From NCBI GenBank assembly GCA_019119745.1, contig DWWI01000079.1, positions 1-33,735 of the forward strand: a stretch of DNA of 33,735 nucleotides. The letters run 5' to 3'. Made by a program: the position numbers and the translations under genes. The notes beneath the pieces are model-generated. The model did not search any database and was not told the origin of the DNA. It saw only the letters and a list, made by a program, of their open reading frames with translations. Each line of letters opens with the position of its first letter. The stretch's first letter is position 1. The stretch comes from Candidatus Mediterraneibacter gallistercoris (lineage in GTDB: Bacteria; Bacillota_A; Clostridia; Lachnospirales; Lachnospiraceae). Shown in pieces: positions 18,995 through 21,133 of the stretch.

Positions 18995-21133
18995 ATGGAA
19001 AATAAAGAATTTAATCCCAGCTGGGTAATTGCTGCCCAGAGCGGAGACCAGGATGCATTTGAGGCACTTTACAAGTATTCCTACCGTCAGGTATACCTGA
19101 CGATTAAAAGTATGATAAAGTCAGATGAAGATACCGTGATGGATCTGCTTCAGGATACCTATATCAAATCTTTGGAAAACCTGTTAAATTTAAAAGATCC
19201 ATCAAAATATAATGCCTGGATAAAAACTATTGCAAGAAATATAACGTTAGATTATTTAAAAAAGAAAAAATCTGTATTGTTTTCAGCTGATCCGGACGAG
19301 GAAAGCAATCCCATTAATGAGGTCGAAGACCTTGACAAATCCAATCAGCCAGAAGTCGCAATGGATGATGCTGAGACAACACGTATCTTTAAAGAAATTT
19401 TAGATTCATTGCCGGACCGCCAGAGGACTACGGTCACAATGTTCTATTACCTGGAAATGAGTGTGCAGGAGATTGCACGGACACTTGGAATCCCGGAAGC
19501 AACCGTAAAGACGCGGCTCTATAACGGAAGAGTAAATATAAAGAAAAAAATTACAGAAGTCGAAAAGAGGGAGAACATCAAGCTTCATGGTGTTGCACCA
19601 ATCGTATTTTTCCTTTTCCTTCTGCAGAAAATGGATACGATGGCAATGGAGCCAAATATGTCGCTGCTTACTAGCATAACCAGCGCAGCAGCGGGCCATT
19701 CCGTCGCAGGTCATACGGCAGCTAAAATGCCAGGTGTCGCGAAAGCTGCCAGCGGCGCAGCAGCGAAAGGTAACTTGGTAAAAGTAATCGGTGGGGTAGC
19801 GCTTGTTGCTGTCATTGGAGGCGCGGCATATGGAACATACCGTTTAAATGTACCATCTGAAGGTAATGGGCAGATTGAACCAAAAGAAGAGGTTGTATCC
19901 GAATCTGAAGATCCCCAAGATACCAATGAGGATGCCATGGCGGCTTATAGAATTTTACTGCAGGAAATGGATAACGACAGCAGCATCTTACTGCAGTATT
20001 GCCATCTGATTGATCTTAACAAGGATGGTATCGATGAGCTTGCCATATTATCCAATGATAAGGATTTCAACTTATATACTTACCACGACGGTAATACCCA
20101 ACTGCTTTCAACCATAAAAATGGCTTCTGTTTACGTTGAGGATTGGGAGTATTATGGCATTACATATGAAGAATATAAGGAAAGATCCTCTACAGAAACA
20201 GACGGCATGGGCCTGCATGTTACCTATAGCTCGGACGAAACTGCGATCTGGGTTGAAACCACTATTCTTGGTGATGCGGGCACGGATAAAGAATACATCC
20301 GGGTATCATATGACGGGAATGAAGAATCCGAAGAGACCTTCAATATCAACATGGTTGGGCTCGCAGAAGACGGGATGAACTTCGAATATGAATACCTCAT
20401 CAACGGAGAAAATGTTGGAGAAGATACATTTACCAAAGAATTCCAAGAGCGTTCGAATGCCGGATATGGAGAAGATGATCTTGGGTTATTTCTGCAAGGT
20501 GATAAGCCTTCCGATAATGCTGAATCTATATCTTCCTCGGATCAGCCTGATTCTTCACAGCTTGAGAGGGCGGCATATACTGCAGTGATCAATGAATACA
20601 GTAATATAGTTCATGGAAATGAGGCAATTTATGACTCAGCGGTTGATCTGGCTGACTCAGGGCTTTGGAACGCCCCGGCAGGGACTTCATATATAGATGA
20701 AAAAGGATTCTTCGTAAATAATTCTGAAAATAACTATTATTACACACTGACGGACCTCGATGGGGATGGTTCAGAAGAATTGATCATAATGGAATCATAT
20801 ACAGATTATGAAGGCAATGAGCAGCCGAATATAGTAGACATACTGGCGCTTCATGATGCCCAACCTGTACTAATACTATCTGGTGGATACCGCAACTGGA
20901 TCGAACTGTGTAAAGGGAATGTCATAAAACGGACTGGAAGCGGCGGCGCAGATGCACACATTTACGAATTCTATAAGATAGAGAATAGTTCCATAGAATT
21001 ACTTCAGACGGTTGAAACAAACTGGGGAGAATACACAGTTGATGGGGCTGCAAGTACAGAAACCGAGGTTGATAATATCCTTTCATCCTACGAGGTAATA
21101 GATTTAAACACTTTCGATTGGATAGAGTTGTAA
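18995..21133 (+). CDS. ECF sigma factor fused to transmembrane and extracytoplasmic sensor-like domains
   Basis: 712 aa. Residues 8-90 are sigma region 2 (DAFEALYKYSYRQVYLTIKS, DLLQDTYIKSLENL, WIKTIARNITLDYLKKK). Residues 128-190 are region 4 (ILDSLPDRQRTTVTMFYYLE, VQEIARTLGIPEATVKTRLY). A hydrophobic stretch at 198-212 and a clear membrane helix at 261-280 (LVKVIGGVALVAVIGGAAYG) follow, with a Ser/Ala/Gly linker between. The outer part from about 290 has two related modules, each with an 'AY...L.EM/Y' helix and a Ca-loop-like DLNKDGIDELAIL (about 340) or DLDGDGSEELIIM (about 587). Ordinary ECF factors are about 180 aa. AGGAGAG precedes the ATG. No anti-sigma gene is adjacent. Membrane-tethered control is inferred. 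Confidence 0.85.
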   Translation: MENKEFNPSWVIAAQSGDQDAFEALYKYSYRQVYLTIKSMIKSDEDTVMDLLQDTYIKSLENLLNLKDPSKYNAWIKTIARNITLDYLKKKKSVLFSADPDEESNPINEVEDLDKSNQPEVAMDDAETTRIFKEILDSLPDRQRTTVTMFYYLEMSVQEIARTLGIPEATVKTRLYNGRVNIKKKITEVEKRENIKLHGVAPIVFFLFLLQKMDTMAMEPNMSLLTSITSAAAGHSVAGHTAAKMPGVAKAASGAAAKGNLVKVIGGVALVAVIGGAAYGTYRLNVPSEGNGQIEPKEEVVSESEDPQDTNEDAMAAYRILLQEMDNDSSILLQYCHLIDLNKDGIDELAILSNDKDFNLYTYHDGNTQLLSTIKMASVYVEDWEYYGITYEEYKERSSTETDGMGLHVTYSSDETAIWVETTILGDAGTDKEYIRVSYDGNEESEETFNINMVGLAEDGMNFEYEYLINGENVGEDTFTKEFQERSNAGYGEDDLGLFLQGDKPSDNAESISSSDQPDSSQLERAAYTAVINEYSNIVHGNEAIYDSAVDLADSGLWNAPAGTSYIDEKGFFVNNSENNYYYTLTDLDGDGSEELIIMESYTDYEGNEQPNIVDILALHDAQPVLILSGGYRNWIELCKGNVIKRTGSGGADAHIYEFYKIENSSIELLQTVETNWGEYTVDGAASTETEVDNILSSYEVIDLNTFDWIEL

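Follow-up and report, generated by a model that had tools for sequence, protein, structure and literature searches.

A one-chain extracytoplasmic function sigma factor with a predicted membrane anchor, from a family of putative sigma receptors in Lachnospiraceae

The window described here is a stretch of 33,735 nucleotides (nt) from Candidatus Mediterraneibacter gallistercoris (assembly GCA_019119745.1, contig DWWI01000079.1, forward strand). Its positions 18995..21133 (+) form one uninterrupted open reading frame (ORF) with an ATG start and a length of 712 amino acids (aa). The product is a fusion of an extracytoplasmic function (ECF) sigma factor, identified by Pfam and NCBIfam matches, with a predicted membrane helix and a predicted outer domain in a single chain.

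The fusion protein and its family

The N-terminal part contains sigma region 2 (residues 25-92; 19067..19270, +; Pfam Sigma70_r2, E 7e-07) and sigma region 4 (residues 131-180; 19385..19534, +; Sigma70_r4_2, E 1.7e-14), both scoring above the cut-off. The NCBIfam sigma70-ECF superfamily model matches residues 20-185 with 97.3 bits, and SigW of B. subtilis is the top match in a sequence search of solved structures. Region 4 is followed by the hydrophobic stretch KLHGVAPIVFFLFLL. A juxtamembrane two-helix element (residues 194-235; 19574..19699, +) is assigned from motif spacing and a structure model and comprises a hydrophobic helix (202-216) and a second helix (222-234). An Ala/Gly/Lys linker (residues 236-260; 19700..19774, +), modelled as disordered, leads to a single predicted Gly-rich membrane helix at about residues 261-283 (19775..19843, +). 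The limits of this helix are approximate, with three methods each predicting one membrane helix at 256-274, 261-279 or 272-284, and it is modelled with low confidence. The outer part (residues 284-712, ~430 residues; 19844..21130, +) is predicted to be extracellular from its charge pattern and its exported relatives. It contains two DxDxDG-like motifs, DLNKDG (residues 340-345; 20012..20029, +) and DLDGDG (residues 587-592; 20753..20770, +). An earlier note on this DNA, made from the sequence alone, had described sigma regions 2 and 4, a membrane helix with about 430 residues behind it and two DxDxDG-type modules. The sigma regions and the helix with its outer part agree with the present matches and predictions; of the modules, both motifs are present, but FG-GAP matches remain under the Pfam cut-off and motif 2 is degenerate in several close homologues. 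In Pfam, the window protein shows no match to the SnoaL or TPR extensions typical of ECF41 and ECF42, having a membrane helix instead, none to zf-HC2, none to FecR down to E 0.1 and, in its outer part, none to a carbohydrate-binding module as in ECF52.

A search with residues 186-712 returned 16 proteins, namely 14 full-length fusions (71-100% identity over these residues), the shorter fusion P0017 and the stand-alone protein P0016. The same fusion gene with similar neighbours is found at locus L001 of a second genome, G001; this locus and the 14 full-length homologues show that the fusion is no chance or assembly join. P0016 (460 residues) carries the same C-terminal part without a sigma region behind a lipobox-like N terminus; it is known from a single record and, as its N-terminal residues are similar to those of the fusion, may be a deletion derivative of one. 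Between the window and L001, the ratio of nonsynonymous to synonymous substitution rates (dN/dS) is 0.073 for residues 1-193, 0.144 for 194-235, 0.356 for 236-265, 0.159 for 266-285 and 0.125 for 286-712, and 0.088 for the downstream lipoprotein. Hence, all parts of the fusion and the lipoprotein are maintained, the linker least.

A profile search yielded 139 proteins; of the 120 that were listed, precomputed annotation assigns sigma domains to 119 and none to P0016, a result that is uninformative about short ECF factors, most of which are removed by the length filter of the search. The lower-ranking matches share, in the examples read, the sigma part, the hydrophobic motif, the linker and the membrane helix. 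The outer parts of most of them differ, since the local alignment covers 31-45% of the query. P0004 and P0025, two different fusions, are perhaps paralogues in one genome.

A family search for the same fusion, suggested in the earlier note, was carried through genomes with profile A2, which has 20 rows and describes the motif-linker-helix stretch between region 4 and the membrane. It found matches in 38 of the 299 genomes of the Lachnospiraceae, the family of G001, and in 10 of 291 genomes of its class, with three genomes common to both match sets. The Lachnospiraceae matches number 48, up to four a genome, some weak ones spanning just part of the profile; 47 lie in frames of 342-1146 aa and the last in a stop-containing frame of 58 aa. 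Two to four matches each occur in G130, G027, G144, G161, G190, G216 and G266. By sequence comparison, the fusion architecture is thus that of a family, above all in Lachnospiraceae, and not a lone oddity. A scan of the genome collection with profile A1 gave one locus, probably owing to the specificity of its peptide patterns, and a scan of viral contigs gave none.

For comparison within the family, 44 fusion loci were processed, leaving out G001's own copy (L032); six were repeats, which gives 38 distinct fusions. A Pfam scan of 38 fusions that includes the window's and omits L045 found region 4 in all 38 and region 2 in 36; without the window's protein, the counts are 37 of 37 and 35. The scan also gave SH3_3, DUF5640, DUF5050, WG repeats and a lipocalin-like domain, each in one or two members, and no anti-sigma family is among the Pfam families listed (25 of 27). 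The zinc-finger motif HxxxCxxC is absent from all 38 distinct fusions within 150 residues after the profile start, that is, after region 4. The common plan is a hydrophobic motif directly after region 4, at a near-constant distance from it, a linker of variable length and a Gly-rich, Leu-poor membrane helix, with outer domains that differ. A zinc ribbon ahead of sigma region 2, an extra module on the cytoplasmic side, was seen by eye in L011 and L031 and also in P0029, P0030 and P0119.

Two-helix element, topology and candidate regulon

In the structure model, the stretch behind region 4 forms two short helices (202-216 and 222-234), and two short helices within ~50 residues are a trait of CnrY-type class II anti-sigma factors. 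The predicted local distance difference test (pLDDT) score is 81/76 over residues 201-220, 90 over 221-230 and 65 over 231-240. It falls below 50 over 238-277, and the modelled helix 272-284 is of low confidence. According to the structure matches, the model places the sigma part compactly, as it is in several anti-sigma complexes; CnrH/CnrY stands in the third row of these matches, tied with neighbouring rows. A first whole-protein model, built from 12 mostly close sequences with a mean pLDDT of 51, was rejected for the fold of the outer part. No fold is claimed for this part because all 22 PDB matches of that model at E <= 0.001 are sigma factors.

The orientation of the chain can be predicted from the charges around the membrane helix. 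Net positive charge is greater in the 20 residues before the helix than in the 20 after it in 38 of 39 proteins, with means of +3.3 versus -1.7. Counting Lys and Arg alone, there are more before the helix in 27 of the 39, equal numbers in six and fewer in six. The C-terminal module was found in 15 further proteins (L010, L012-L021, L025, L027-L029), none of which has a Pfam sigma domain and two of which match the subtilase family. All 15 of these stand-alone proteins begin with a hydrophobic segment like that of an export signal or anchor, and a lipobox-type cysteine is present in eight (seven by pattern, L014 by eye). From this charge pattern and the export signals or anchors of the stand-alone relatives, the outer part is most likely extracellular, with the N terminus inside and the C terminus outside the cell. 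A D and a G of DxDxDG-like motif 2 are invariant across the 15 proteins; this secreted module is marked by a GSGGA stretch, an invariant Arg, and an invariant D and G in DxxGDGxxEL.

Upstream of the sigma gene, by 80 nt, lies the ECF-type promoter motif TGAACC-N16-CGTC (18889..18914, +), in line with SigW/SigM-like promoter preferences. Both of its elements are identical at L001, whereas the spacer and the more distant surroundings have diverged. A pattern search found a second TGAACC-N16-CGTC site (23640..23665, -) 51 nt before a 266-aa membrane-protein gene (22788..23588, -), which is predicted to be a target from this upstream motif. For the pattern TGAAC-N17,18-CGTC, the window holds two sites versus 0.41 expected, the second being on the other strand, and both share the extended form TGAACCT-N12-ATTCGTC. 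The whole genome of G001 served as an outside test of this extended pattern, which came from the window: five sites with at most one mismatch were found versus one for a reversed control. The only exact site precedes the sigma gene, and, on a separate contig from the sigma gene, a one-mismatch site lies 50 nt before the 266-aa gene's orthologue (82% identity). Other TGAACC-N16-CGTC sites in G001 were left uncounted where they fall within stop-free frames of at least 210 aa, as 7 of 10 do. A third site of this kind outside long stop-free frames is L076. The 266-aa protein has no Pfam match above the cut-off, and a close orthologue of its gene occurs in one of the 299 genomes, G001; five distant relatives (L126-L130) gave four loose GAAC/CGT sites in three loci, irrespective of gene starts.

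Among the 38 other fusion genes, with start codons chosen by script, GAACC-N16-CGTC precedes two (shuffle mean 0.007; none of 1000 shuffles reaches two), and GAACC-N15-17-YGTC, a form loosened after looking, precedes four (shuffle mean 0.059). Other generic ECF patterns precede 3 of 38 versus 0.59 expected, 2 of 38 versus 0.10, and none. That GAACC-N16-CGTC stands before every fusion gene fails for 36 of the 38. Self-activation through TGAACC-N16-CGTC is likely for the window's gene and for a small number of relatives.

Downstream of the fusion gene, with 56 nt between them, lies a gene for a 377-aa lipoprotein (21190..22323, +); this gene is likely co-transcribed and is conserved at L001. Its relatives directly adjoin two other fusions (loci L091 and L124; genomes G239 and G216). 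A lipoprotein specific to fusions is refuted by relatives in 56 of 299 genomes, of which two outside G001 were seen beside a fusion. The earlier note had seen no anti-sigma gene next to the fusion, and this stands: none of the eight proteins scanned, the fusion and its neighbours, matches an anti-sigma Pfam family, and HxxxCxxC is absent from every window frame of at least 80 aa. Elsewhere, HxxxCxxC is absent from the first 120 residues of 158 non-fusion ORFs in 20 fusion neighbourhoods, and no anti-sigma family is found in ten rescanned flanking proteins or, for 40 flanking proteins, among the Pfam families listed (25 of 53). These negatives cover Pfam families and the HxxxCxxC type in the flanks, as opposed to motif-less or distant factors.

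The stretch 18300-18640 (-), upstream of the sigma gene, matches the last 50 positions of the Cys_Met_Meta_PP profile just below the cut-off (E 3.8e-06), apparently a decayed gene for a pyridoxal phosphate-dependent enzyme of Cys/Met metabolism. YqfD, PhoH, YbeY and an SpoVB-like flippase stand in a row at 12251-16713 (+), an order apparently shared with L001. A glycosyltransferase resembling PgfS, below the cut-off of that model (26511-27440, -), adjoins a YfhO-type membrane protein (27867-30464, -), and the two are a possible surface glycosylation pair.

A one-chain receptor and its alternatives

We lean, with some reserve, towards the fusion being a one-protein receptor, in which the two-helix element would act as a clasp that holds the sigma part inactive until cleavage within the membrane helix frees it. 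A signal or a site-1 protease would change the outer part or cause its shedding, upon which a site-2 protease of the RasP/RseP type would cut the membrane helix. The freed sigma part would then drop the clasp, bind RNA polymerase and transcribe three genes: that of the fusion itself, that of the lipoprotein behind it, and the 266-aa gene. RasP is the Gram-positive RseP, and G001 encodes a protease homologue of this type. The membrane segments of 39 fusions contain on average 3.3 Gly and 1.5 Leu versus 1.3 and 4.2 in 37 control segments (Mann-Whitney p ~9e-8 for Gly and ~1e-8 for Leu), the controls being the best 19-residue windows, with a core free of Asp, Glu, Lys, Arg, Gln and Asn, of ORFs of at least 150 aa from the same loci. 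Intramembrane proteases favour weak helices as substrates, and we infer that a Gly-rich, Leu-poor helix suits such cleavage. A one-protein system with an outer sensor had already been suggested in the earlier note, which was right in outline: the architecture and the outside prediction for the C-terminal part stand, while the note overlooked the family with its two-helix element and Gly-rich helix, the likely promoter and the likely target in the window. The reading now rests on the family, the predicted clasp, the topology argument and the candidate regulon.

Several points weigh against this picture. The compact form is taken from the structure matches, without helix-sigma contacts being seen, so that binding of the clasp is a prediction; AlphaFold2, trained on ECF/anti-sigma structures, may give this form by default, the model having no control ECF, and the hydrophobic helix might rest against the membrane instead of the sigma part. 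A match over the whole length is not reached by all anti-sigma complexes, with 101 residues aligned for sigma-E/RseA, 89-90 for AlgU/MucA, and 146 at 7.4 Å for SigK/RskA. The control segments of the helix comparison include signal peptides, and the site-2 protease model matches all 14 control genomes (nine over the cut-off), such proteases being present in most bacteria. As to the promoter, two TGAAC-N17,18-CGTC sites are reached in 8 of 100 window shuffles, and two sites of the extended motif, allowing two mismatches, in 3 of 100, the motif having been derived from those very two sites. Some of the conservation between the window and G001 is descent, as these are close relatives. The motif is exact in 2 and loose in 4 of the 38 other fusions, and thus self-activation through it is not general.

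Membrane regulators such as ToxR and CadC act on DNA while tethered, and the sigma part could likewise work at the membrane, with the outer domain changing shape or clustering and no cleavage being needed. The linker is long and modelled as disordered, so a tethered sigma could reach the polymerase, and the Pfam matches of eight window proteins include no protease family. On the other hand, a sigma factor must work with polymerase on the chromosome, the Gly-rich, Leu-poor helices are common to fusions with differing outer domains, and proteolysis releases IutY, the fused case that has been characterised (PMC5411451); we regard tethered action as unlikely. Similarly doubtful, and quite improbable to us, is that the fusion just places the sigma factor at the membrane and that the real inhibition comes from another protein, either a partner whose gene lies elsewhere or the downstream lipoprotein through an effect on the outer domain. 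The lipoprotein family does stand beside the fusions in G239 and G216, and in 7 of 20 neighbourhoods, counted by eye, the gene that follows on the same strand at no more than 200 nt codes for a protein that is likely exported; but a lipoprotein would not directly reach a cytoplasmic sigma factor, and the searches of the 40 flanking proteins, the ten rescanned ones and the 158 ORFs gave neither an anti-sigma family among those listed nor HxxxCxxC.

If the stretch 201-211 were itself a membrane span, the chain would cross twice and the C-terminal part would be cytoplasmic. This stretch resembles a short signal-peptide core, and a 19-residue Kyte-Doolittle window reaches 1.63-1.75 in P0018 and P0019 and at least 1.5 in 4 of 38 fusions (L035, L047, L049, L050). 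However, the hydrophobic core has ~12 residues, often with a proline, and a mean net charge of +3.2 before and +3.4 after it; positive charge on both sides argues against a second span, and relatives of the C-terminal module are exported, which makes two spans very improbable. Nothing specific speaks for a decayed sigma part on what is just a membrane-anchored surface protein, and we find this hardly credible: no segment is under stronger constraint than the sigma part (dN/dS 0.073), both of its regions, 2 and 4, pass the cut-off, and a matching promoter motif precedes the sigma gene and a second gene.

Returning to the one-chain receptor, its broader form is more tentative, with a chance a little short of even: Clostridia, above all Lachnospiraceae, may possess a Notch-like sigma family, in which a two-helix anti-sigma clasp replaces the zinc finger and a Gly-rich, cleavable helix is combined with exchangeable outer sensors. 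Notch is a receptor and transcription factor in one, and by this analogy every cleavage event would yield exactly one active sigma factor. ECF signalling normally requires two proteins and their mutual recognition; with one chain and exchangeable sensors, clostridia would rewire surface sensing by a single-domain swap. Such a receptor would offer a simple test bed for Gram-positive intramembrane proteolysis and possibly a one-gene biosensor. For a direct test, the window holds the candidate promoter, the gene itself and one further candidate target.

Comparison with known fused and separate anti-sigma systems

The comparison draws on parts of PMC8999054, PMC7406223, PMC8103513, PMC5826349, PMC10202637 and PMC5411451. 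No paper on the clostridial fusion architecture was found in the open-access literature searched, a scope outside which the Casas-Pastor 2021 classification lies. Two groups can be set beside the clostridial fusions by description only. ECF262, with an example from Ruminococcus albus, is listed in a 2022 review with a regulatory extension of unstated type, and ECF288 from Blautia producta is among the groups with regulatory extensions of other types, Cys-rich by the text (PMC8999054, in the parts consulted); the likeness of ECF262 is that of an ECF group with a regulatory extension.

ECF48, ECF52 and ECF53 resemble the fusions in their order of sigma part, membrane helix and outer domain. In the sections drawn upon, they are described as actinobacterial and as bearing a zinc-finger anti-sigma domain with expected proteolytic release, and for ECF52 (SCO4117) such release is proposed and positive autoregulation suggested (PMC8999054, PMC5826349). 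The fusions differ herein by lacking HxxxCxxC in the 150 residues after region 4 in all 38 cases. The closest counterpart of the two-helix element is CnrY, a class II anti-sigma factor whose two short helices hold sigma4 and sigma2 (PMC7406223, as excerpted). Two short helices are modelled here in cis, whereas CnrY is a separate protein; the likeness is structural, and no sequence homology is claimed.

Fused membrane-anchored ECF factors released by proteolysis are already known, as the consulted part of PMC5411451 describes for IutY of Pseudomonas putida (ECF243), a sigma and anti-sigma factor in one chain for which release by Prc and RseP was shown. The statement of the earlier note that no mechanism is described for such proteins was therefore too strong for the type, given the cuts in IutY and the proposal for ECF52. 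IutY and the fusion share an ECF sigma factor and a membrane-anchored regulatory part in one chain, with an outer part that is exported in IutY and predicted to be so here. A periplasmic anti-sigma part and a partner outer-membrane siderophore receptor are IutY's own, as far as that account goes. The fusion described here, known from sequence alone, differs from IutY by having no FecR match, its closest relatives in Clostridia, outer domains that vary from member to member, and the two-helix element.
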